Assembly (NCBI GenBank): GCA_023665085.1
Contig: JAMPEQ010000002.1
Location: forward strand, 186,001 to 250,000
Source: Bacteroides sp.
GTDB taxonomy: Bacteria; Bacillota; Clostridia; Oscillospirales; Acutalibacteraceae
Length of the DNA stretch: 64,000 bases
Direction: 5' to 3'
Shown: piece after piece, positions 9,268-64,000 of the stretch
How positions within the stretch are numbered: position 1 is the stretch's first letter
Layout: each line of letters begins with the position of its first letter
The notes under the pieces: generated by a model
The model's database searches: none
What the model was told of the DNA's origin: nothing
The model's input: the letters and a program-made list of their open reading frames with translations, nothing else
Position numbers and translations under genes: made by a program

Positions 9268-9789
9268 TTTTTCTTCGCTCCAAAGGCGAGTATAAACCTC
9301 CCTGCATTTTTTGTATTTAGCAAAGGTGCGGATTGCCTCACACTCATTGCAATATACCTTCCAGCAGCCCGTGCATTTGCAATTCTCTCCTGCATTATCG
9401 ATAAAACCGATAACATCCCCCAAAGGATAATCAAGAAAAATTCCGATTTCGTGCGGAAATGAATTATATTTCTGCAGTCTTGCTTTCAGCCTGTTAATGG
9501 CATAATCAACCTCTGTACTTTCATATCCGTAATCTGCCAGAAACTCTTCAACACCGGCTTTGTGCAAATCCTGCTGTAATCTTGTTTTACGGCAAACATA
9601 AATCAAAGCAAAGTGCTCTTCCTTTTTGAGCAAAATCAATTCAATGCCTTTATCCTTGAAATTTGAATTCCACATATCGATATACTCCGAAATATCCTCT
9701 TCATATTCAAAATGATAGGTAAAAAGATTAGCTGTTTTTAAGGATGCAAGTGTCGGAGCACAATGCTCAATCAAATATTTTTCAATCAT
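9235..9789 (-). CDS. DUF3793 family protein
   Basis: 184 residues from the ATG at 9789, chosen because GGAAAGG precedes it by about 6 nt; an upstream in-frame ATG at 9804 lies on the edge of the operator and lacks a ribosome site. The protein begins MIEKYLIEHCAPTLASLKTANLF and has a cysteine-rich motif near residue 145 (CKCTGCWKVYCNEC) that could bind metal. DUF3793 proteins have no established biochemical role that I know; they commonly neighbour flavodoxin and iron-transport genes, and here flavodoxin is in the same run of genes. The upstream promoter carries a perfect 10-bp-arm palindrome. Confidence 0.85.
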   Translation of the reverse strand: MIEKYLIEHCAPTLASLKTANLFTYHFEYEEDISEYIDMWNSNFKDKGIELILLKKEEHFALIYVCRKTRLQQDLHKAGVEEFLADYGYESTEVDYAINRLKARLQKYNSFPHEIGIFLDYPLGDVIGFIDNAGENCKCTGCWKVYCNECEAIRTFAKYKKCREVYTRLWSEEKRNIMQLTVAV

Positions 9790-49658: not shown

Positions 49659-49664
49659 AAATAG

Positions 49665-49875
49665 TGTTGGCAGAGGAAGCCAACATTATACATTACAATT
49701 GAATATTTATTTTTACTTGTAGTTTAACCAATGAGTTAAAACTAATCTTTAAGTTTAATGTACGATAGGATCATTAAGTCGGACATTGAAACGAATACAT
49801 ATTTACATAGCAATTCCTCACACAAGGGGGTAGTCTGTGTAAAAGTATGTATAGGTTTCAGTGCCCGACTTTTTT
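49665..49875 (+). ncRNA. Unassigned structured RNA, copy 1
   Basis: About 210 nt between the conserved promoter and a T6 tract. Predicted helices are GTTGGC/GCCAAC near the 5' end, AGTTTAAC/GTTAAAACT, and a long terminal hairpin made of GTCGG/CCGAC, TGAAAC/GTTTCA and ATACATA/TATGTAT that ends in TTTTTT. A second copy lies at 63267-63481, with an HTH gene after this copy but none after the other, so it is unlikely to be merely that gene's leader. Not matched to a family I know. Confidence 0.65.
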
Positions 49876-49918
49876 GCGTTCTGATGCCTATAAAAATTCA
49901 AAAAGGAGGTCAAATAAG

Positions 49919-52337: not shown

Positions 52338-53480
52338 ATGTACGAACTATACGATAAGAACGGAAACCTTATCTGTTATCGTATGACAAAACGAATTAAA
52401 AATGATAGTGGCGAGTACGATGTGCTCACTGCAAGGTCAAAGAAAAGCGAAAAAGAATGCAGAAAGATTATGGATGACAAAATTCGTGACTACTACATTC
52501 AAAAAGAAACAGAAAAGCACAAAGGTGTATTCTCTGATATGTTATTTAAGGACTTCGCTGATAATTGGTTTGAACTGAATGTTAAAAATGCTGATTGCAG
52601 CCAAGTCAACAAAGATAACTACAAAAACTATGTTTACACACATATCATCCCCTACTTTGCTAACTACAAGTTATGCGAGATACACGAGGATGATTGTCAG
52701 AGATTCCTTAATCAATATGTCGGCAAAAGCAAGGCTATGGTATCCAAATTAAGAATGACTTTAAGACGAATCATGCGTAAGGCTAAGAAACAAAAGTTAA
52801 TACCCGACAATCCTGCTGAAGATATTATCTTGCCAAAGGTAACACAAGGACAACAGCGGCCGATAACGGATGAAGAAAGAGCGATGATACTTGAAACTGC
52901 TAAAACTCATTATGCAGGAACAATGGTATTAACAATGCTCTATTGCGGACTCAGACCGATTGAAATTCGCCGAATGGAATGGAGTTGGATAGACTTTGAA
53001 AACAGTATCTTAACAGTCGGTAAATCAAAAACCGAAGCAGGAACAGGCAGAAAGATACCGATACCACCTCAATTAAAATCAGCATTGATAGAGCACAAAC
53101 TCAAAGGACAAAACGATAAGTGGGTATTTGTAAGATGCAAAAATCACAACTTACCACTTGACGAAAATGCATTCTATCATGCATGGCACAATTTTTGCAG
53201 AGAGATGGACATTGCCAATGGTGCAACGGTCTACAGAAATCAAATTACAAAATCAACTCTTGCATCAGATCTTGAGCCATATCTACTCAGACACACCTTC
53301 TGTACAGACTGCCAAGCTGCAGGTGTACCACTCAATGTTGCTAAAGAACTTATGGGACACTCAGACATATCCGTAACGGCAAAAATCTATACTCACATGG
53401 TTGACGAGGTGTTTGAACAAAACCGAAAACGATTAACTGAATATGCAAATCAAAAGGAGCTAAAAGCAGTAAACGAGTAA
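52338..53480 (+). CDS. Tyrosine integrase of the mobilizable element
   Basis: 380 residues. An N-terminal arm-binding region (about 1-60), SAM-like core-binding domain (FKDFADNWFELNVKNAD, about 70-165) and catalytic domain with Arg in YCGLRPIEIRRM, LLRHTFCTD (HxxR), GHSDISVTAKIYTHM with the Tyr nucleophile. It ends 10 bp before the hairpin repeat and 1.26 kb from the tRNA-Gln core at 54742, the expected place of an integrase that targets tRNA genes. Confidence 0.9.
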   Translation: MYELYDKNGNLICYRMTKRIKNDSGEYDVLTARSKKSEKECRKIMDDKIRDYYIQKETEKHKGVFSDMLFKDFADNWFELNVKNADCSQVNKDNYKNYVYTHIIPYFANYKLCEIHEDDCQRFLNQYVGKSKAMVSKLRMTLRRIMRKAKKQKLIPDNPAEDIILPKVTQGQQRPITDEERAMILETAKTHYAGTMVLTMLYCGLRPIEIRRMEWSWIDFENSILTVGKSKTEAGTGRKIPIPPQLKSALIEHKLKGQNDKWVFVRCKNHNLPLDENAFYHAWHNFCREMDIANGATVYRNQITKSTLASDLEPYLLRHTFCTDCQAAGVPLNVAKELMGHSDISVTAKIYTHMVDEVFEQNRKRLTEYANQKELKAVNE

Positions 53481-53489
53481 ATACAAAAA

Positions 53490-53528
53490 GAGGTAGGGGC
53501 ACTACACAAAATGCAGTACCCCCACCTC
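53490..53528. repeat. Element hairpin repeat, copy 2 (after integrase)
   Basis: GAGGTAGGGGCACT...CCCCCACCTC hairpin just past the integrase stop, probably its terminator; partner of 21731-21769. Confidence 0.85.
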
Positions 53529-53611
53529 AAATTTTGGTGACAAACAATATATATTGGCAAAGAACATTTTCTATTGCCGTTCTTGGTATAAACAACAAAC
53601 AATTGATTATC

Positions 53612-54469
53612 TTATAATTTTTCTTTTAATGTTTCAATTTTCTTAATTCTACTAATATTATCCAATTCAAGATATGCCAATAAAATCATTTGATATAATT
53701 CATCATACCATTTTTCAAGTGTCGTTTTTTTCATTTTAGCAACATATTCTTTATAATGCTTACTTTCCTTATTCTTATTATTGTGCCTGATATTAAGATT
53801 GTTTAATATAAAAAATATATTGTCGGTTAAGATTTTATCAACCTTCGCTAATTGTTGCCTTTTTGGTTCTAAATCAGTTGCAAGAGCAAGCAAAATAGAT
53901 TTTTTAGCTTCAACATCACCTTTTAACGCATGATGATTGTACCTTATAACTTCACATGCTAAATTTTCTTCTATAATTTCAGATACAGATGTTGCTGTTT
54001 CATTCTTTGGTACTATTATTGCACAATCGTATTTTGGTAAATATTTTGCTTCGTAATTTATCCAATCTAAAGATGAAGCTAAATTTTCTTTAGCCGCGTA
54101 AACAGTATCAGTATAATAGTCTTCACTATTCTCGTTTTTATCTAAAAGGAATAGCATATTGGAAGCATATTCGCAAAAATTCAGAAAATGTTCCTCTGTA
54201 AACTCTTCTTCAGACAAAGTACAATTTAAATCTAATTCAGCTTTCATATCATATGTCCCAATACAGTTAGTTCTCTGTACCCATGTTTTGAAAAGTTTTT
54301 TATCTATGTAATTTTCTATAGAACAAAAATTATAATCACTATCTGTTTCAGGGAAAACCGCCCATGGAATTCCTATAGCGTGTTGATCTTCAAATAATAA
54401 TTTTAATCGATCATAATCATCGTATAAATTCCTATTATTTTTTATAATATCAAAAATACTTTTTCTCAT
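53612..54469 (-). CDS. Unknown protein in the element's cargo slot
   Basis: 285 residues (AAAGGCG 5 nt before the ATG). Not recognised. It is mainly helical and charged with a central strand-rich part (YDCAIIVPKNETATSVSEIIEE, then VIRYNHHALKGD) and a C-terminal RHNNKNKESKHYKEYV helix resembling the tails of some abortive-infection proteins. It lies on the opposite strand to the integrase and between hairpin and attachment core, where cargo is expected, so a defence role is possible. Confidence 0.6.
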   Translation of the reverse strand: MRKSIFDIIKNNRNLYDDYDRLKLLFEDQHAIGIPWAVFPETDSDYNFCSIENYIDKKLFKTWVQRTNCIGTYDMKAELDLNCTLSEEEFTEEHFLNFCEYASNMLFLLDKNENSEDYYTDTVYAAKENLASSLDWINYEAKYLPKYDCAIIVPKNETATSVSEIIEENLACEVIRYNHHALKGDVEAKKSILLALATDLEPKRQQLAKVDKILTDNIFFILNNLNIRHNNKNKESKHYKEYVAKMKKTTLEKWYDELYQMILLAYLELDNISRIKKIETLKEKL

Positions 54470-54550
54470 TTATTCGCCTTTCAATTATTAATTCCAATAT
54501 TTAGATTATTACATAAATTTTTATGAATTTCAATAGAAATTAAATTAACC

Positions 54551-54640
54551 ATTATATCATCTCTTAAAAGTCTCTCACTAAATTGGCAAAGTTTGGCGAG
54601 TTTGTGAGTCTCAGAAAGTCTCACAGAGGTCTGCTATACA
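54551..54640. repeat. Arm-type repeats near core B
   Basis: TCTCTTAAAAGTCTCTCACTAAA and spaced GTCTC motifs, matching the region at 22481-22575. With the core below this covers 54470-54874, which has no gene. Confidence 0.6.
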
Positions 54641-54712
54641 AAATTCAAGGTAAACACAGAAACTAAAAAAGCACCTTTTCAGGTGCAAAAACGTGCCAAA
54701 AGGCGAAAGAAA

Positions 54713-54858
54713 ATGGACAGTTCGTTATGAACTGTCCAACTTTGGCAGAGGTATAAGGATTCGAACCTTAAATGACGGAGTCAGAGTGTAAAAATCACTT
54801 TTTGAAACACACCATTTTAAGCCATATTTCCATTTTTGAGTCTCTCAAAAATCTCTCA
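54713..54858 (-). other. Attachment-site core B: 3' half of tRNA-Gln plus flanks
   Basis: Hairpin GGACAGTTC/GAACTGTCC (54713-54739), then the 66-bp block 54742-54807 identical to core A with the tRNA-Gln 3' half on the minus strand, then TCTCTCAAAAATCTCTCAC. The 5' half of the tRNA is absent here also. Confidence 0.8.
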
Positions 54859-54874
54859 CAAAAGATTTAAGGGA

Positions 54875-55276
54875 TTAATTTGTTTTTTCGTCAAGATAGT
54901 TTTCTATTGCATTTACAATTTCTTTAGCCATTTGGTAATATTCTTTAGCTGAGTCTAAATCATACTGAATAACCATATCATAATCGCTGTCTTCACGAGC
55001 CTCCTGCAAATCACCAATCATATCAGAAAGTGCAGAATCAAACAAACCTGTTTTTATATAATTCTTTCTGAAATATGCAATAACACCTGAATGCTTTTTT
55101 GAATCAAAGCCAGCTAACAATTCAACCGCTTTCATTGCATGAAATGCAGCGTAATATGAACGATTTACAACTGAGTTGTAATCGCCAAGTTCAATATATC
55201 CGGGTATAAAGTTAATCAATTCTTTTGCTCTGTTAAATTGTAATTCAGACAATTCTTTTAATTCCTGATCAGGCAA
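54875..55276 (-). CDS. HEPN domain protein (toxin-like partner of MNT)
   Basis: 133 residues, all helical, with the HEPN motif in NRSYYAAFHAMKAVELL (Arg-x4-6-His) and a matching C-terminal helix. In MNT/HEPN pairs the HEPN protein is an RNase-like toxin and the nucleotidyltransferase modifies and silences it. Overlaps the MNT gene by 8 bp. Confidence 0.85.
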   Translation of the reverse strand: MPDQELKELSELQFNRAKELINFIPGYIELGDYNSVVNRSYYAAFHAMKAVELLAGFDSKKHSGVIAYFRKNYIKTGLFDSALSDMIGDLQEAREDSDYDMVIQYDLDSAKEYYQMAKEIVNAIENYLDEKTN

Positions 55277-55607
55277 TTTTTATACCCTCCGATTCAACAT
55301 TTTTATAAAACGGCAAATGATTTCTGTAACGATTAAAGGTTTCTGTATCCACAATATTAAGCGAAACAACAATATCATATTCAAGTGATAACGAGCTTGC
55401 AAAATGAACAAATAATTTCCTATACTTTAATCGTTCTTCCTTTTTGCAAATCACTCTTACCATAACATCTATATCAGACTCATCATCATAGTCACCACGA
55501 GCATAAGAGCCGTAAAGAATAACAGCATCAAGCTTGTCACCAAGAAGCCGCTTTGCTTCCTCGGCAACAGCAGAGGCTATAATATTCACTTCACGCTTTG
55601 TGCACAT
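55269..55607 (-). CDS. MNT-type nucleotidyltransferase (antitoxin-like)
   Basis: 112 residues from the ATG at 55607 (GGTGGTGA upstream). The minimal nucleotidyltransferase motif is intact: LYGSYARGDYDDESDIDVMV with both metal Asp residues, and a third acidic strand LEYDIVVSL. Likely AMPylates or otherwise neutralises the HEPN partner. Confidence 0.87.
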   Translation of the reverse strand: MCTKREVNIIASAVAEEAKRLLGDKLDAVILYGSYARGDYDDESDIDVMVRVICKKEERLKYRKLFVHFASSLSLEYDIVVSLNIVDTETFNRYRNHLPFYKNVESEGIKIA

Positions 55608-55742
55608 AAAATCACCACCGATAATTATCTTACTATTAGTATACATAAAAATTATAACAAAATCAACTTTATTATAAAAGAGCGAGCAAAGATTTTGGAA
55701 GAATACTGACAGTAAAATAAATTTTGCTTAATGCGATAAAAG

Positions 55743-55776
55743 AAAGCCGTTCGTACGGGGAGGTACGAACGGCTTA
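55743..55776 (-). terminator. Terminator of the SipW/TasA/LRR operon
   Basis: AAGCCGTTCGTAC and its complement around a 6-nt loop, with TCTTTT after it on the minus strand. Confidence 0.88.
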
Positions 55777-55802
55777 AATTGGTTATTAAATTGTGACTGC
55801 GG

Positions 55803-58800
55803 TTACTTTTTGATGTAGGTAACTGCATCTGTTGCAGAGGACTGATAAGTTACAATCTCTGCAGGAGTGAAGGTTGTTGAATCATCACCCTGAACATACC
55901 ATGCAGTACCTGTTGCAGCAGTTGGCAGATAACCCTTTGTGCCGACAAAGCGGAATTTTGCACCAAGTGTTACATCTGTAAGTTTTGAACAACTCTGGAA
56001 CATATTATCCATTTTTGTTACCTTGCCTGTGTCAAAACTTGTTAAATTGAGCGTTGTCAAATTGTTACAACTGCTGAACATATACGACATATCTTTTACA
56101 TTGCTTGTGTCAAAACTTGTTAAATTAAGTTCTGTTAAACCTTTACTACAACCTTCAAACATATGCGACATATCTGTTACATTACTTGTATTAAAGTTGC
56201 TCAAATCATATGTTGTCAAACCTGAACAACTATTGAACATATACGACATATTTGTTACCTTGCTTGTATCAAAGCCTGTTACATCAAGTTCTGTTAAGCC
56301 TAAACAACCACCGAACATATGCCTCATACTTGTTACATTGCTTGTATCAAAACCTGTTACATCAAGTGTAGTTAAACCTTTACAACTACCGAACACAGTC
56401 GACATATCTGTTACCTTGCTTGTGTTGAAGTTTGTTACATCAAGTGCAGTTAAACCTGAACAGCCACAGAACATATATGCCATAGTTGTAACATTGCTTG
56501 TATCAAAACCTGTTACATCAAGTGAGGTCAAACCTGAACAACCATTAAACATATAATCCATTTTCGTTACCTTGCTTGTATCAAATTCTGTTATATCAAC
56601 TGCCGTCAATCCTGAACAACCACTAAACATATTCGTCATACTTGTTACCTTACTTGTAACAAATTTTGTCACATCAAGTGTTGTCAATGCTGAACAACCA
56701 TTGAACATAGATGCCGTATTTGTTACCTTTCTTGTATCAAAGCCTGTTACATCAAGTGAGGTCAAACCTGAACAGCCACTGAACATACTCGTCATAGCTG
56801 TAACATTGCTTGTATCAAAACCTGTTACATCAAGTGATGTCAAGCCTGAACAACCATTGAACATAGACGACATATCTTTTACCTTGCTTGTGTTAAAGTT
56901 TGTTATGTCAAGTGCAGTCAAACCTGAACAGCCATTGAACATAGATGATATACTTGTTACATTGCTTGTGTCAAAATTTGTTACATCAAGTGATGTCAAA
57001 CCTGAACAGCCATTGAACATAGATGATATACTTGTTACCTTGCTCGTGTCAAAATTTGATACATCAAGTGATGTTAAACTTGAACAGCCATTGAACATAG
57101 CCGACAGGCTTGTTGCCTTACTTGTGTCAAAATTTGTTACATCGAGTGATGTCAAACTTCTACAGCTATAAAACATCAGTGACATAGTTCTTGCCTTGCT
57201 TGTATCAAAATTTGATACATCAAGTGTTGTCAATTTTGAACAGCCATTGAACAACCATGACATATCCTCTACATTACCTGTATTCCAGTTTGATACATCA
57301 AGTGATGTCAAACCTGAACAGTTATAGAACATATTATACATATTTGTTACATTACTTGTTTCAAATCCCGATACATCAAGTGTTGTCAATTTTGAACAGC
57401 CATTGAACATATATTTCATATCTTTAACATTGCTTGTGTCAAAACCGCTTACATCAAGTTTCGTCAATTTTGAACAGCGATAGAACATATATGACATATT
57501 CTCAGTATTGCTCGTGTCTATTAATTTGAAAAAAACAGATTCAAGGTAATTACATTTTTCAAACATACTATCTGAATTTTGCGGAAATTCTACTGCACAG
57601 CCTTTTTCAGCAAGTACATATGCTGTGCTGCCTTTTTGAAACACCTTAATACGGTCACGAAGATTAGTATCGCCCTCCTTTGGTTCCTGTGCATAATTTG
57701 TGTTATTTGCCCAATCCTCGTCTGTAAGACTAAGCATTCCCTTCCTGTTATTAAAACTGTCAAATACAATACTTGTTATGCTGCTGTTATTCAAGCCATA
57801 CTCTGTAACAAATTTCTGATAAAGCACAGGATTAACAGGCGGATGCTGAACATAAGTTGTTGCTGCGGTTACATTTTTTTGATTTACTGCAATCTGTGCA
57901 GGAGTTAATGCGTTTTCATCATCACCCTGAACATACCAATCATTGCCTGTTCTTGCATTCGGCAGATATCCGACTGTACCGACAAATTGGAAATTTGTAC
58001 CGAGGGTTACCTCTGTCAAAGCAGTGTCATTTAAGAACATATTTTCCATTGTTGTAACCTTACTTGTATTCCACTTTGACAAATCAAGTGCTGTCAAGCC
58101 TGAGCAACCACTGAACATACTGTTCATAGCCGTTACCTTGCTTGTATTCCAGTTTGATACATCAAGTTCGGTCAAGGATGAGCATTCGATGAACATTTTT
58201 TCCATCGTTGTAACATTGCTTGTATTCCAGCCTGATACATCAAGTTCGGTCAATAATGAGCAGCGTTGGAACATACAGCACATATCTGTAACTTTACTTG
58301 TGTCAAATCCCGACACATCAACTGCGGTCAAGGAGTAACAGTCACAAAACATCGTCCGCATAGTTGTAACATTGCTTGTATCAAAACCCGATACATCGAC
58401 CGAAGTCAGCGCCTTACAAAGAGTGAACATTGATGCCATATCTGTTACCTTGCTTGTGTCAAAATTTGACACATCGACCGAAGTCAAAGAGGCGCATTCG
58501 TAAAACATCTGCTTCATATTTGTAACATTGCTTGTATCAAAACCCGATACATCAACTGAACTCAGTTTTGGACAAACATTGAACATAAGTGCCATATCCG
58601 TTACCTTGCTTGTGTTAAAGCTTGACACATTAACTTTTTCCAGGGATGCGCAATTCTGAAACATAACACGCATCGTTGTAACGCTGCTTGTGTCAAAGCT
58701 TGATAAATCAAGCGATGGCAAGGAGGAACAATGATTAAACATTTTCCACATCGTTGTGACATTGCTTGTATCTATTGCGTTAAACTCAATAGAGGTAAGG

Positions 58801-59246
58801 TTTCCGCAAAAATCAAACATCAAGCTTGAATCAGCAGGAAAGGTTACAGGATAATCCTCTTTCGCAAGGATGTATGCAGTATTGCCCGACTGAAAGAGTT
58901 TGATGCCCTTGCGAAGATTATCGGCAGATGATGGAGCACCCTTAGCCTCCTGAACATAGTTTGTGTTATTTTTCCAATCCTCGTCTGAAAGACCAAGTGC
59001 GTCTTTCTGATTATTAAAGCTGTCAAACACAATTTTTGTTGTGCCGTTATTTTTCAAATCATATTTGGTGACAAAATTCTTATAAAGCACAGGTGCATTT
59101 GCTGTAATTTCAATATTCACTGTGCCTGCGTTTTTTGTTTGTGCAAATTTTGCAAATGTAAAGCTTGTGCATATTGTAAGTATAACAGCCACAAGGCAAA
59201 TAAAAGCAGAGAAAAATGCTCTGTTTTTCTTATTCGATTTTTCCAT
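55803..59246 (-). CDS. BspA-like leucine-rich repeat (DUF285) surface protein
   Basis: 1147 residues. The N-terminus has a SipW-type export signal (FTFAKFAQTKNAGTVNIEI). Two arrays of about 23-residue DUF285 repeats (LDVSNFDTSKVTDMSxMF) follow, about 12 copies near 145-410 and about 24 near 560-1090. Each array is preceded by the same capping module (VLYKNFVTKYDL / VLYQKFVTEYGL) and followed by the same cap (FVGTVGYLP / FVGTKGYLP), so the protein is an internal duplication. No wall anchor is seen. Probably an adhesive component of the fibre made by this operon. Last gene, with a strong terminator after it. Confidence 0.9.
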   Translation of the reverse strand: MEKSNKKNRAFFSAFICLVAVILTICTSFTFAKFAQTKNAGTVNIEITANAPVLYKNFVTKYDLKNNGTTKIVFDSFNNQKDALGLSDEDWKNNTNYVQEAKGAPSSADNLRKGIKLFQSGNTAYILAKEDYPVTFPADSSLMFDFCGNLTSIEFNAIDTSNVTTMWKMFNHCSSLPSLDLSSFDTSSVTTMRVMFQNCASLEKVNVSSFNTSKVTDMALMFNVCPKLSSVDVSGFDTSNVTNMKQMFYECASLTSVDVSNFDTSKVTDMASMFTLCKALTSVDVSGFDTSNVTTMRTMFCDCYSLTAVDVSGFDTSKVTDMCCMFQRCSLLTELDVSGWNTSNVTTMEKMFIECSSLTELDVSNWNTSKVTAMNSMFSGCSGLTALDLSKWNTSKVTTMENMFLNDTALTEVTLGTNFQFVGTVGYLPNARTGNDWYVQGDDENALTPAQIAVNQKNVTAATTYVQHPPVNPVLYQKFVTEYGLNNSSITSIVFDSFNNRKGMLSLTDEDWANNTNYAQEPKEGDTNLRDRIKVFQKGSTAYVLAEKGCAVEFPQNSDSMFEKCNYLESVFFKLIDTSNTENMSYMFYRCSKLTKLDVSGFDTSNVKDMKYMFNGCSKLTTLDVSGFETSNVTNMYNMFYNCSGLTSLDVSNWNTGNVEDMSWLFNGCSKLTTLDVSNFDTSKARTMSLMFYSCRSLTSLDVTNFDTSKATSLSAMFNGCSSLTSLDVSNFDTSKVTSISSMFNGCSGLTSLDVTNFDTSNVTSISSMFNGCSGLTALDITNFNTSKVKDMSSMFNGCSGLTSLDVTGFDTSNVTAMTSMFSGCSGLTSLDVTGFDTRKVTNTASMFNGCSALTTLDVTKFVTSKVTSMTNMFSGCSGLTAVDITEFDTSKVTKMDYMFNGCSGLTSLDVTGFDTSNVTTMAYMFCGCSGLTALDVTNFNTSKVTDMSTVFGSCKGLTTLDVTGFDTSNVTSMRHMFGGCLGLTELDVTGFDTSKVTNMSYMFNSCSGLTTYDLSNFNTSNVTDMSHMFEGCSKGLTELNLTSFDTSNVKDMSYMFSSCNNLTTLNLTSFDTGKVTKMDNMFQSCSKLTDVTLGAKFRFVGTKGYLPTAATGTAWYVQGDDSTTFTPAEIVTYQSSATDAVTYIKK

Positions 59247-59263
59247 AGCATTTTTCTCCTTTC

Positions 59264-59779
59264 TTAATCTATCTGTTCAAACTGAACATCAACTGAAATG
59301 TCCTCATACAAATCACTCTCTGCATCATCAAGAGCGGTAAAAGTGATTGTGTCCTTGTCATTCTGACCTGCTCCAAGATTTACTGCATCAAATACAGCAG
59401 TATTGATTTCATCAGTGGTTGTTACTGCCTGACTGCCAATACTCACGCAAACCTCAGGCGGCAGGTTGCCGACAACCACTGTGTACTGCACTGCCGTTTC
59501 GGAATCATTCAAAACCTCAAATGCATATTCGCCCGAAATACCCTCTGTATTGTCCAGTTCAATAAGGCTTGGCTGGTCTGCACTTGCTGTGGCAGAAACG
59601 CTGAAGCGTGCCATTCTTGCTGAATCAGAGCCCGTTGCTGAAGCTGTGTATCGTGCAAGACTCACACCGCTTAAAAGCAGAGTAACCACGAGCAGATAAC
59701 TGACGATTGCCGACAGCGGAAGCCTGAATCTTTTTCCCTTATTAACATGTATGGAGTTTCGTTTTTGTTTCTTCTCCAT
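59264..59779 (-). CDS. SipW-dependent TasA/camelysin-like small protein
   Basis: 171 residues (AGGAGG upstream). Long basic N-terminus, hydrophobic helix, then the SipW-type box LARYTASATGSDSARMARFSV, close to that in the 61229 protein, followed by a beta-rich domain (GEYAFEVLNDSETAVQYTVVVG). Probably a minor matrix subunit. Overlaps the second SipW gene by 38 bp. Confidence 0.78.
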   Translation of the reverse strand: MEKKQKRNSIHVNKGKRFRLPLSAIVSYLLVVTLLLSGVSLARYTASATGSDSARMARFSVSATASADQPSLIELDNTEGISGEYAFEVLNDSETAVQYTVVVGNLPPEVCVSIGSQAVTTTDEINTAVFDAVNLGAGQNDKDTITFTALDDAESDLYEDISVDVQFEQID

Positions 59780-60284
59780 AATCTACATCCTCCTGAATTT
59801 TGCCCGAAGGTATGCACATCAGCAAACCTCCTGCAAGAACAATACAAAGCATACCCCAAGGTGATTTCAGTGCTGAAATAATCAGCCCTGCTTTTGGAAT
59901 TATCGTAACCACACAGCCAACCACATTATCCTTTGAAACAGGATCCTTATCAGTTGTGTTATTTGCATCACCCTGTGTAATATAACAGCCGTCCTGTGTG
60001 ATTTCCTTGATACGATGTGTTACAAGGTTTGTACCTGTTTTGTAAGTAACAATATCGCCGACTGCATAATCATTTTTTTCGTGGATAACAACCATATCAT
60101 CCACCTCAAATGCACCTGACATACTGCCTGACATAACAACTGCTGAGGAGTATCCGAATATCGACGGCTGATCTCCTGTCAGGGCTTTGGCTGCCATTAA
60201 GTACAGATTACACATCAAAATCACTGCCAACAAAACTATAAGCACCGAGCGAATCATTTTAACCGTAACTTTTATTCCCTGCAT
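59742..60284 (-). CDS. SipW-type signal peptidase I (second)
   Basis: 180 residues with an N-terminal and a C-terminal membrane helix. ER-type catalytic Ser in VMSGSMSG and His in NLVTHRI; GDIVTYKTG and ITQGDANNTTDKDPV are the conserved boxes. Processes TasA-like precursors at the membrane. Overlaps both neighbours (13 and 38 bp). Confidence 0.9.
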   Translation of the reverse strand: MQGIKVTVKMIRSVLIVLLAVILMCNLYLMAAKALTGDQPSIFGYSSAVVMSGSMSGAFEVDDMVVIHEKNDYAVGDIVTYKTGTNLVTHRIKEITQDGCYITQGDANNTTDKDPVSKDNVVGCVVTIIPKAGLIISALKSPWGMLCIVLAGGLLMCIPSGKIQEDVDYGEETKTKLHTC

Positions 60285-61051
60285 TTTTTATCCCTTCTTT
60301 TATCAATAATCAAGAATATGAGCACAACTGCACTGATACACATAAGTGAAACATAAGCACCCATTTCTGCAGGCTGCTGCCATGCATCATCAGCACCTGT
60401 GTTTGGTGATGTATAGGTATTGCCGTCCTCAACAACGATATACATGCCGATTGTTATATCCATATTTTCATCTACGGCTTGGTTGCCGAGGTAAGTATCA
60501 ATGGTGTCCTGCACATCACTGTTCTGATAATCCCAGTTCCAGCCAATGTCAAAATCCTGAATCATACCACCGCCGACAGTTCCGCTCACAGCACGGATTA
60601 TGTCATCGCTCTTTACACCGTCAGGCAAAAAATAATTCTGAGTATCAGCAAGATTTTCACCTTTAAGATAAGCCTTAACAGGCAGCTCCTCAACTGATTT
60701 GATACTGTATAGTACCGCTGTATAATGAACAGGCTTGCCGACACTGTTTTTCAATCGAATGATATTGTTTGAACTACTGCCCGGTGCGATGATTTTACTG
60801 CCGTCATCAGACCTTGCATTCTGATATACTGTATCAAACAGCGAGAGCCTTGCCGCTCCGTTTTCATCAACACCATCTGTATTACTCCAGGTCAAATTAC
60901 CCTGCGTATATGTAAGAATATGATTTGGAGATTCACTCCTGTCTGCCCAGGTAAAATTGATTACAAACGGAAAGGTAACAACCTCTAATATAAATAAAAT
61001 CAGCACAACCGGGAGCAGCCAGCCTTTTTGCTTTTTCAAAAAAGTATTCAT
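60272..61051 (-). CDS. Membrane-anchored TasA-operon surface protein
   Basis: 259 residues. N-terminal hydrophobic export segment, an extracellular beta-rich domain (IIAPGSSSNNIIRLKNSVGKPVHYTAVL, similar to the IVAPGTKGT segment of the 61229 protein), a TSPNTGADD segment and a C-terminal membrane helix with basic tail (IDKRRDKK). May anchor or cap the fibre as TapA does in Bacillus; not a clear TapA homologue. Confidence 0.72.
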   Translation of the reverse strand: MNTFLKKQKGWLLPVVLILFILEVVTFPFVINFTWADRSESPNHILTYTQGNLTWSNTDGVDENGAARLSLFDTVYQNARSDDGSKIIAPGSSSNNIIRLKNSVGKPVHYTAVLYSIKSVEELPVKAYLKGENLADTQNYFLPDGVKSDDIIRAVSGTVGGGMIQDFDIGWNWDYQNSDVQDTIDTYLGNQAVDENMDITIGMYIVVEDGNTYTSPNTGADDAWQQPAEMGAYVSLMCISAVVLIFLIIDKRRDKKCRE

Positions 61052-61143
61052 ATTAATTCCTTTCCTGTAGTATTTTGGTCTAATTAAATCGGTTCTTAAA
61101 CCTGTGTCAATGCCCTAATTACAGGGCACTCATACAGACTCAA

Positions 61144-61182
61144 GAAAGCAGCCCCGTCCTGCTTATGAACGGGACCGCATCT
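61144..61182 (-). terminator. Internal terminator/attenuator after the main fibre gene
   Basis: GCGGTCCCGT/ACGGGGCTGC stem with TTTCTT after it, between 61229 and 61051. Partial readthrough would keep later genes lower than the fibre gene. Confidence 0.65.
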
Positions 61183-61228
61183 TCTGTAAATAATATTAAC
61201 GATTTGCTGCGAACTGTTTTAACTGAAA

Positions 61229-61894
61229 TTAGTTATTCTGAGTTACAGTAGTTGTAATATCAAGCTGGATGTCTGCAGCATTACCGGCAGCAGCCTGATT
61301 ACTGAGTTCAGTATCTTTAATATTATCGTTGCCTTCAATAGACCAAGCCCATGTAACTACAGGTGCTTTAGCCTCTGCCATATCTGCATTTGCCTCATAA
61401 TCTGCACTGTCTGCGTGAATTGCATCCTCAACTGCTTTCTCAAATTCTTCTGCAGTGTCAAATGCCGTACCCTTAATTATATCACCATCAACTGTAATTT
61501 CGATTGGGCAATAGAATTCATCGTCGATTTCCCAGTTTGCAAGTTTAAGGTCTGCTGTATAATCAACATGTACCGCAACCTCAGGTTCACCTGTGATTTC
61601 CATAGCAGTTACCGTGCCCTTTGTGCCCGGAGCAACAATTTTATTGCCATTGTTAGAAACAACAAGTTCATTGTTATACTCTTCTGCGAAAGATTGACCA
61701 TTTGCTGTAACAGCCACGCCGAACTGAGCAACCCTTGCACTGTCACCTCCATTATCAGCAGCTGTGTATCTGGCGAATGTGCCGCCCGCAAAACAGCTTG
61801 TTACCAATGTAAGTGCTAATGCAACTGCTGCAACCTTCATACTCTTTGACTTCTTTGTTGTGTTTACCTTCTTTATGTTATTTGCCTTTCTCAT
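61229..61894 (-). CDS. TasA-like fibre protein (SipW substrate)
   Basis: 221 residues (AAAGGAG upstream). Basic N-terminus, hydrophobic helix, GGTFARYTAADNGGDSARVAQFGV (SipW-type signal and mature start), then a beta-rich acidic domain (IVAPGTKGTVTAMEITG). It follows the first SipW gene and is followed by an attenuator-like hairpin, as fits an abundant structural protein. Confidence 0.8.
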   Translation of the reverse strand: MRKANNIKKVNTTKKSKSMKVAAVALALTLVTSCFAGGTFARYTAADNGGDSARVAQFGVAVTANGQSFAEEYNNELVVSNNGNKIVAPGTKGTVTAMEITGEPEVAVHVDYTADLKLANWEIDDEFYCPIEITVDGDIIKGTAFDTAEEFEKAVEDAIHADSADYEANADMAEAKAPVVTWAWSIEGNDNIKDTELSNQAAAGNAADIQLDITTTVTQNN

Positions 61895-62002
61895 AATAAA
61901 AATCTCCTTTAAATTTAAAATTATTTTTGGGCTCTACTTATTTGCCCTATTATTTTTCGGGACTCTCCTTTTATTTGTCCCTTGTTTTAGTTATTAAGCA
62001 AA

Positions 62003-62662
62003 TTAGCTTGCAGGATATGTGTCACTGCGCTTTTCCTCATTTAATTTTCGCAGTCTGTCTATCTCTGCCTGCATCTGGATCGCTTTTTCATTTTCAGTAC
62101 AAGCGTACCTCTGACGGCGAATGATATCATACATAATGAATACCAACACCGGAACACCGATGAACAAAACCATTCCGAGCGGCTGCTGTAAGAACATAGC
62201 GAAATTACCAAGCTTTGGAATACGCTGTTCATATATTCCCACAACATTATCTGCTGTTACCGAGTTTGCATCTTCAACATTATTTGCATCACCCTTTGTT
62301 GTAAACAACAACTTTCCGTTTTCATCCTTTTCAATGGATTTAATCCTGTGTGTAACAATAATGTTTTTATCCTTGAAAGCGATGATGTCGCCCTCTTTCA
62401 GATCCTGAGTGTCAACCTTATCAATCAAAACAAGATCGCCTACCTCAATGTGATCCGCTGCAGTTCCACTCATTGAGCCTGACTGCACCACCAACGGCGT
62501 TACACCCCAAACAGACGGTGGACTATCCGGATAAATTGCACCTTTTACAATGATTGTCAGATTGCTCAGCAGCATAAATCCAAAAACAATGCAAAGGATT
62601 ATTCCGATAACGGATATTGTTAACTGTAAACCACTCTTTTTTTCTTTTTGTTCCGTGTTCAT
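62003..62662 (-). CDS. SipW-type signal peptidase I (first)
   Basis: 219 residues from the ATG at 62662 (AAGGAA upstream; longer in-frame extensions run into the riboswitch terminator). N-terminal helix, catalytic VQSGSMSG (Ser) and IVTHRIKS (His), FTTKGDANNVEDANSV, C-terminal helix and a charged coiled tail (IQMQAEIDRLRKLNEEKR). First gene after the tandem riboswitches. Confidence 0.9.
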   Translation of the reverse strand: MNTEQKEKKSGLQLTISVIGIILCIVFGFMLLSNLTIIVKGAIYPDSPPSVWGVTPLVVQSGSMSGTAADHIEVGDLVLIDKVDTQDLKEGDIIAFKDKNIIVTHRIKSIEKDENGKLLFTTKGDANNVEDANSVTADNVVGIYEQRIPKLGNFAMFLQQPLGMVLFIGVPVLVFIMYDIIRRQRYACTENEKAIQMQAEIDRLRKLNEEKRSDTYPAS

Positions 62663-62703
62663 AATACTTATTCCTTTCGTGCTGCCTTTATTGTTTTTTT
62701 GCA

Positions 62704-62748
62704 AAATAAAAAGCAGCCTTTTTCCTGCTAAGGGAAACCGGCTGCTCG
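62704..62748 (-). terminator. Terminator of riboswitch 2
   Basis: AGCAGCC/GGCTGCT stem followed by TTTTTATTTT, just before the first SipW gene. Confidence 0.82.
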
Positions 62749-62772
62749 CTCTGTGTTTTTGGCACAAAAATA

Positions 62773-62880
62773 AAGAATTACGCTTCTTTAACGGCAACTG
62801 GCTGACATATCTTTCGACTTAGTCCCTTTAGCTTTGCGTCACCGATTTTCATCGGCTTTGCTATTGAAATATTCAATTTC
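62773..62880 (-). promoter_or_regulatory. c-di-GMP-I (GEMM) type riboswitch 2
   Basis: Minus strand contains TAGCAAAGCCGAT-GAAA-ATCGG, TGACGCAAAGCTA, GGGACTAAG, and ATGTCAGCCAGTTGCCG, the conserved parts of the GEMM-I aptamer in order, followed by its own terminator. Confidence 0.82.
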
Positions 62881-62933
62881 ATTTGTGAATCAGTATGTTT
62901 TCAAAATTGTCACTTAAAATGTGATGTAATCAT

Positions 62934-62976
62934 AAAAAAGCGACCTCCTTCCTGCTAATGGTTACCTGGCCGCTTC
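62934..62976 (-). terminator. Terminator of riboswitch 1
   Basis: AGCGGCC/GGTCGCT stem (one G-U pair) followed by TTTTTT. Confidence 0.8.
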
Positions 62977-62997
62977 GTGTTTTGAAAAACAAAAATA

Positions 62998-63105
62998 AGA
63001 ATTACGCTTCTTATGCGGCAACTGGCTGGCATATCATTTCTGACTTAGCCCCTTTAGCTTTGCGTCACCGACTTTCATCGGCTTTGCTATTGAAATATTC
63101 AATTT
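62998..63105 (-). promoter_or_regulatory. c-di-GMP-I (GEMM) type riboswitch 1
   Basis: Same aptamer as riboswitch 2 with a few changes (GGTGACGCAAAGCTA, GGGGCTAAG, ATGCCAGCCAGTTGCCG), directly after the promoter. Confidence 0.83.
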
Positions 63106-63118
63106 CGATTACAAACGC

Positions 63119-63147
63119 ATTATACACCCACCAAATTCACTTGTCAA
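63119..63147 (-). promoter_or_regulatory. Consensus promoter of the riboswitch-controlled operon
   Basis: TTGACA (63147-63142), 17-bp spacer, TATAAT (63124-63119), exact. Start is expected about 7 bp before aptamer 1. Confidence 0.92.
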
Positions 63148-63260: not shown

Positions 63261-63266
63261 AAATAG

Positions 63267-63481
63267 TGTTAGCAGAGGAAGCCAACATTATACATTACAA
63301 CTAAATATTTTACTTATTATTTTTATAGTTTAACCATTGAGTTAAAACGAATCTTTTAAGTTTAATGTACGATACGGGAATTAAGTCGGACATTGAAACG
63401 AATACATACTTACATAACTATTCCTCACACAAGGGAGTAGTCTGTTTAAAAGTATGTATAGGTTTCAGTGCCCGACTTTTT
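63267..63481 (+). ncRNA. Unassigned structured RNA, copy 2
   Basis: About 215 nt, aligned end to end with 49665-49875. The GTCGG/CCGAC, TGAAAC/GTTTCA and ATACATA/TATGTAT helices are kept, and the inner ACTATTCC/GGAGTAGT helix is stronger here. Ends in TTTTT. No HTH gene follows. Confidence 0.65.
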
Positions 63482-64000
63482 GCGTTCTGAAATCTATAAA
63501 ATTGAAATTCATTGGCTCAAAGTAGATTACTTAACGGCTAAATAAGTGGGAGGTGTCATAATGCAAATTTTTAATAGCATATAAAATTTTTTCAAAAAAT
63601 GGTTTACAAAACATTTTTAAGTGTCCTTATATATGGAGAGAATTTTCGATTTGAATTTTTGACAGTTTTGAATATGACCAATGTGGTCATATAGTGAACG
63701 GTAATATATAAACAAGATAAATAAAACAAGTTACAAACCCCTGTGTGACGATATAACGAGATTTTGTTTCACTGTAAGCACCGTTACTAATTCAAAATAA
63801 AAATCGATTGTGGCAAAAATAAAAGAAAAAAATTTAAAAATTATGGCCCTTTTACTGCTTTGCCACTGCCTACTATATTGGAAGGTGTATTTATAAACAA
63901 TCTGTAAATAAAATTTTTAAAGCGTGATATTTTGATATTTTAATGTCCGTATAGTGAAGAGTAATTTAAAATCTTCATATTTTGCTTTTCTCGTGGCTAT
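63482..64000. other. Non-coding right end of window
   Basis: A ribosome site GGGAGG precedes a 7-codon ORF (MQIFNSI) at 63561-63584, in the position of the HTH gene of copy 1, possibly a remnant. ATATGACC-AATGT-GGTCATAT (63672-63692) is an operator-like inverted repeat, and TATAGTGAA-N-GGTAAT-like sequence recurs near 63691 and 63950. No gene is seen. Confidence 0.5.

Follow-up and report, generated by a model that had tools for sequence, protein, structure and literature searches.

The window, which is the whole stretch of 64,000 nucleotides analysed here, gives exactly two matches in an Rfam cmscan, and both are full-length c-di-GMP-I riboswitch aptamers (RF01051, gathering score 35) on the minus strand (Table 1). 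The two aptamers lie in one leader with no gene between them, and each is followed by a terminator of its own, which is the make-up of a tandem riboswitch. The original prediction placed such a pair behind a single consensus promoter at positions 62704-63147; the coordinates are accurate, the covariance-model scores (73.6 and 70.6 bits) and the T1 and T2 hairpins bear out the riboswitches and their terminators, and the promoter matches the consensus at 12 of 12 positions, with no good promoter for unit 2. Both aptamers are complete, as had been proposed, and in the RF01051 alignment each retains the conserved core, which comprises the GAAA tetraloop, GACGCAAA, CUAA, AGCC, UGCC and the base-pairing C. 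The 3' arm of T1 (window 62950-62910, minus strand) contains a perfect Shine-Dalgarno sequence, AAGGAGG, which recurs in the terminators of the first units of C28, C29 and G008; at 10 nt beyond it, the window has an ATG that opens a 7-codon ORF (MITSHFK). A fossil ribosome site, a leader peptide or a pairing constraint are alternative explanations of this sequence.

Table 1. Features of the tandem riboswitch leader, of the operon behind it and of the other aptamer loci of the genome.
Feature	Position	Strand	Basis
Sigma-70-type promoter, TTGACA-17-TATAAT	63119..63147	-	12/12 consensus match; sole good promoter of the leader
c-di-GMP-I aptamer, unit 1	63014..63098	-	RF01051, 73.6 bits, E 1.5e-12, model 1-87
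Aptamer 1 strand GCUAAAGG, predicted pairing with T1 loop CCAUUAGC (62961-62954)	63051..63058	-	Folding
Aptamer 1 strand GCCGC, predicted to form the antiterminator with T1 5' arm GCGGC (62973-62969)	63015..63019	-	Nascent-transcript folding
Spacer hairpin AUAAGAA-GCGUAA-UUCUUAU, directly 3' of aptamer 1	62995..63014	-	Folding; alignment with unit 2
Terminator T1, stem GCGGCC/GGUCGC (62973-62940), then UUUUUU	62934..62973	-	Hairpin -11.2 kcal/mol, U6
c-di-GMP-I aptamer, unit 2	62790..62872	-	RF01051, 70.6 bits, E 8e-12, model 1-87
Aptamer 2 strand GCUAAAGGGA, predicted pairing with T2 loop UCCCUUAGC (62735-62727)	62823..62832	-	Folding
Aptamer 2 strand GUUGC, predicted to form the antiterminator with T2 5' arm GCAGC (62745-62741)	62794..62798	-	Folding; 8/1000 shuffles
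Hairpin UAAAGAA-GCGUAA-UUCUUUA, directly 3' of aptamer 2	62771..62790	-	Folding
Terminator T2, stem AGCAGCC/GGCUGCU (62746-62712), then U-tract UUUUUAUUUU	62703..62746	-	Hairpin -19.2 kcal/mol
SipW-type signal peptidase I, first operon gene	62003..62662	-	TIGR02228, 95.7 bits
Secreted protein, ARYT...DSAR N-terminus, candidate SipW substrate	61229..61894	-	ORF; homologues in SipW operons of relatives, up to 48%
Terminator-like hairpin within the operon, 3' of the gene for the first candidate substrate	61148..61178	-	Pattern scan
259-aa protein, kept in the operons of relatives	60272..61051	-	tblastn
Second SipW-type signal peptidase	59742..60284	-	TIGR02228, 91.3 bits
Second candidate SipW substrate	59264..59779	-	33% to the first candidate substrate where the two align
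1147-aa PARCEL/DUF285 leucine-rich-repeat surface protein	55803..59246	-	TIGR02167, 937.7 bits; DUF285, 814.8 bits
Aptamer pair ahead of a transglutaminase/FnIII surface protein	L011
Two aptamer pairs at C28, one ahead of a truncated LRR surface protein and one ahead of an intact one	L010
Single aptamer leading a decayed copy of the window operon	L012		Altered -10, terminator lost, leader fused into the 259-aa gene

The two units share 90% identity across the aptamer and 20 further nucleotides, and the sequence 5' of unit 2 aligns to the promoter of unit 1 in a degenerate form. A promoter belonging to unit 2 itself was rejected, as this region is only a weak match. The alignment upstream of unit 2 makes it appear that the whole promoter-riboswitch unit was duplicated, and the pair therefore probably arose by such a duplication, followed by loss of the inner promoter. 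The stems of the hairpins that follow the aptamers are kept through paired substitutions (AUAAGAA/UUCUUAU in unit 1, UAAAGAA/UUCUUUA in unit 2, a compensatory A-U/U-A swap), which suggests selection on structure.

The genes behind the leader had been described as a SipW/TasA/LRR operon. The two SipW-type peptidases, which score well above the TIGR02228 cut-off of 51.85, and the PARCEL/DUF285 leucine-rich-repeat protein are firmly assigned by their model scores, so these parts of the description stand. The TasA part does not, since searches of Pfam, NCBIfam and the PDB (by sequence and by profile) match none of the secreted proteins to TasA or CalY; a structure prediction of the TasA-like protein, made from two sequences, has a pLDDT of 33, which is too low to be of use. 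The first secreted protein is a candidate TasA-like protein through the context of its gene and through the ARYT...DSAR motif at its N-terminus. A search of a collection of genome contigs with SipW returned only distant relatives (34-35%). The order SipW, secreted protein, 259-aa protein, SipW, secreted protein is found in G061, G059 and G060, and partly in G011, and no RF01051 match was found around SipW in these operons or in six further SipW loci, so riboswitch control is a lineage-specific addition. The terminator-like hairpin inside the window operon has the loop AUAAGCAGG, which resembles the loops of T1 and T2, and might favour the first product above the rest. A HEPN/MNT-type nucleotidyltransferase pair, which is toxin-antitoxin-like, follows directly after the LRR gene (window 54875-55646, minus strand).

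In the expression platforms of both units, the terminator starts 38-45 nt past the end of the aptamer, at 38 and 42 nt for the two window terminators, and does not overlap it, so the bound aptamer and the terminator can coexist and the aptamer does not block termination. The aptamer strands are complementary to the 5' arm and to the loop of the terminator that follows, and the lowest-energy fold just before terminator closure is an antiterminator built from aptamer strands; this holds for both window units, for C28-1 and for C29-1. In growing-transcript folding of unit 2, for example, GCUAAAGGG and GUUGC of the aptamer are paired with the T2 loop and 5' arm before closure. The predicted cost of holding the aptamer fold at this point is about 7 kcal/mol for unit 1 and about 14 kcal/mol for unit 2, against 2-3 kcal/mol earlier in transcription, in nearest-neighbour folding that disregards the tertiary contacts of the aptamer. 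The spacer hairpin after aptamer 1 is paired in both predicted states.

The duplex between the aptamer and the 5' half of the terminator exceeds that of shuffled sequences in five of six units of the window class (6, 8, 18, 18 and 26 of 1000 shuffles reach it), which are homologous units, so that these tests are not independent; window unit 1, whose duplex is reached by 109 of 1000 shuffles, is not significant alone. None of six ON-type controls from the same genus has such an excess (213-987 of 1000 shuffles reach the duplex). In C29-1 and the G061 relative, antitermination goes through a different aptamer strand (12-13 bp), apparently an independent solution. A separate terminator with an antiterminator predicted to be built from an aptamer strand is the OFF arrangement of Cd1 of Clostridioides difficile, which is experimentally an OFF switch (PMC9262584), and C. 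difficile class I riboswitches behaved as off switches (PMC6200980). Because the platform matches Cd1 and this behaviour, both units are most likely transcriptional OFF switches, in which c-di-GMP is predicted to stop expression.

The opposite wiring, in which c-di-GMP would block termination in both units and activate the matrix operon in an AND-like manner, is known from Bc3-5 of Bacillus thuringiensis, the best studied tandem c-di-GMP-I system (PMC4759541), and would agree with the general promotion of surface attachment by c-di-GMP and with the occurrence of ON-type units in the same genus. In these ON-type relatives, the 3' strand of the aptamer is itself the 5' arm of the terminator and the hairpin begins 10-12 nt before the aptamer end, whereas the window terminators stand 38-45 nt apart from the aptamers and match the aptamer strand by complementarity and not by identity, and an ON wiring of the window pair is for this reason considered unlikely.

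The interpretation held to be probable is an OFF-OFF tandem, in which two c-di-GMP-I riboswitches in series behind one promoter would allow expression of the operon only at low c-di-GMP. Without ligand, the emerging 5' arm of the terminator would pair back with the aptamer strands to form the antiterminator, and the polymerase would continue; with c-di-GMP bound, the aptamer would retain its own strands, the terminator hairpin would form and transcription would end. Either bound unit would be enough to halt transcription, so the SipW/surface-protein operon would be on only when c-di-GMP is low, and the AND-like response that had been suggested is not expected from this architecture. The activation of matrix genes by c-di-GMP that was implied along with it is also opposite to the predicted direction. 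The steeper response, which was part of the same proposal, is expected: by calculation, read-through of two independent OFF units is the product of both unbound fractions, and with equal Kd the midpoint falls at 0.41 Kd and the 10-90% range is 40-fold for the pair, compared with 81-fold for a single unit. c-di-GMP usually promotes matrix proteins and does not repress them, and this counts against the OFF reading; if the direction is true, c-di-GMP represses a SipW-dependent surface-protein operon, contrary to the usual matrix-gene expectation. Pseudo-cooperative behaviour of tandems that bind the same ligand is known (PMC9481103).

In equilibrium folding without ligand, unit 1 prefers the antiterminator and full-length unit 2 prefers the terminator, so unit 2 may always terminate partly and, the preferences being opposite, the set points of the units may differ. 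The stability of T2 in this state, together with the lack of an own promoter, would suit a leader in which regulation comes from unit 1 only, unit 2 or T2 being a duplicate of weak function whose main effect is to cut read-through. Such a division is unlikely, since aptamer 2 has all the conserved residues, its antiterminator signal is among the strongest of the class (8 of 1000 shuffles; 14 kcal/mol) and the substitutions in the spacer hairpin are compensatory.

The base that precedes GCAAA in the aptamer (model position 11), which is a variable position within RF01051 where G is commoner than A, is presumably equivalent to G20 of Vc2, so an A at this place corresponds to the A20 type. The mapping leans partly on PMC9262584. 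All nine aptamers of the genome, both window units included, have A here, as do both G061 aptamers; G008 has one A and one C, and the ON-type aptamers of the genus have G. An A at the specificity position goes with a preference for c-AMP-GMP in Geobacter and Desulfobacca (PMC9481103), which, with the difference between this genome and the ON-type aptamers, would speak for sensing of 3',3'-cGAMP (c-AMP-GMP) or of both dinucleotides. The G11A change in Cd1 had no large effect, however (PMC9262584), and the enzymes of the host point away from this ligand. The sole GGDEF protein of the genome, a REC-HD-GYP-GGDEF protein (C22:137601-138047), carries the canonical Asp (GHxxGD), as do the GGDEF proteins of G008 and G061, the other two species with the window aptamer class, whereas Hypr GGDEF enzymes carry Ser or Thr (PMC6456294); the canonical Asp thus indicates that there is no Hypr enzyme. 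A SMODS nucleotidyltransferase (CD-NTase) was not found in the genome either. Recognition of cGAMP is therefore judged quite improbable. The aptamers share with GEMM-Ib the A at the specificity position, and the c-AMP-GMP synthase that would go with it is missing from the host, where the sole GGDEF protein has Asp and no SMODS protein was found; that these A20-type aptamers are tandem OFF switches for 3',3'-cGAMP or both dinucleotides, outside the Hypr-GGDEF setting of Geobacter and its relatives, is very improbable.

Of the 13 genomes of the genus with the riboswitch, 12 have GGDEF proteins, as against 11 of the 67 without it (Fisher p 2.5e-7), genomes of one genus not being independent. Because only canonical diguanylate cyclases accompany the aptamers, GGDEF proteins co-occur with the riboswitches and no SMODS protein was found, c-di-GMP is the likeliest ligand of both aptamers. 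Neither an EAL nor a PilZ domain was found in the genome, so its c-di-GMP network appears very small, with one GGDEF/HD-GYP enzyme and nine aptamers, other receptors being possible. Elsewhere in the genus (L037, L040, L046 and L049, for example), c-di-GMP-I riboswitches of ON architecture adjoin GGDEF genes in several species, and some of these aptamers, separated by about 1.2 kb, flank a GGDEF gene. Such arrangements may provide feedback on the cyclase. The occurrence of ON-type and OFF-type species in one genus offers a natural comparison of one sensor wired in opposite ways.

The nine RF01051 aptamers of the genome are mostly paired before surface-protein genes, and besides the window pair they make up three further pairs and a decayed single. 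The transglutaminase/FnIII locus may be compared with the listing of COG1305 for Bacillota c-di-GMP-I tandems in PMC12452182. A quadruple tandem at C28 was considered and rejected, as the locus consists of two units of pair and gene, of which the first gene is truncated. The C28 and C29 pairs lack a terminator in the second unit, the platform of which may therefore work at the level of translation. A pattern search of 394 genomes sampled from the order detected the window class in just two species of the genus, this one and one other; G061 is a third with this class, with a changed core. An integrase with the SipW/LRR operon is present in two copies about 70 kb apart on one contig (L012 6186-8180; window 52338-63147), and the far copy is decayed, with a broken -10, a lost terminator and a truncated LRR gene, which points to a mobile or duplicating region.

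A very stable long hairpin RNA (fold z -6.2, reached by 0 of 200 shuffles) is encoded at window 63262-63486 on the plus strand behind a TTGACA-17-TAAACT promoter, and has no match in Rfam. It occurs three times on the contig of the window, the other copies being at window 49660-49880 (plus strand) and at C22:181299-181522 (L012 about 9300-9523), and copies of 81-92% identity are found in five other genomes of the genus. In the L012 copy, a 116-aa HTH-like ORF begins within the 3' arm and has its Shine-Dalgarno sequence inside the stem, so the hairpin may be the leader of a mobile-element gene and sequester its start.

The window pair is a well-formed example of a known device, the tandem c-di-GMP-I riboswitch, and such pairs are common: this is the most numerous tandem riboswitch class, with 347 doublets and 12 triplets (PMC9481103). 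With so many doublets known and four more instances in the same genome, to call the tandem notable, as was done at first, is an overstatement. As in other c-di-GMP-I tandems (PMC9481103), including Bc3-5 (PMC4759541), an RF01051 aptamer is repeated in one leader with a terminator for each unit, a surface-protein operon lies downstream, and a steeper, pseudo-cooperative response is expected. Unlike the ON switches of Bc3-5, the window units have an OFF architecture, and their genes form a SipW/secreted-protein/PARCEL-repeat operon. Cd1, in the flgB leader of C. difficile (PMC9262584, PMC6200980), has the same separate downstream terminator and an antiterminator between the 3' strand of the aptamer and the 5' arm of the terminator, but it is single, controls flagella and has G, where the window pair has A, at the specificity position. 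The c-AMP-GMP riboswitches of Geobacter (GEMM-Ib), which are sometimes in tandem (PMC6456294), belong to the same RF01051 family and share the A; they are ON switches beside Hypr GGDEF enzymes, and the window genome is without such an enzyme. The operon itself resembles SipW-TasA of Bacillus subtilis and SipW/BsaA of Clostridium perfringens (PMC7395162), which have a SipW-type peptidase beside small secreted proteins, and it differs from SipW-TasA operons in that its secreted proteins lack a TasA model match and that it combines two SipW genes with a PARCEL repeat protein.
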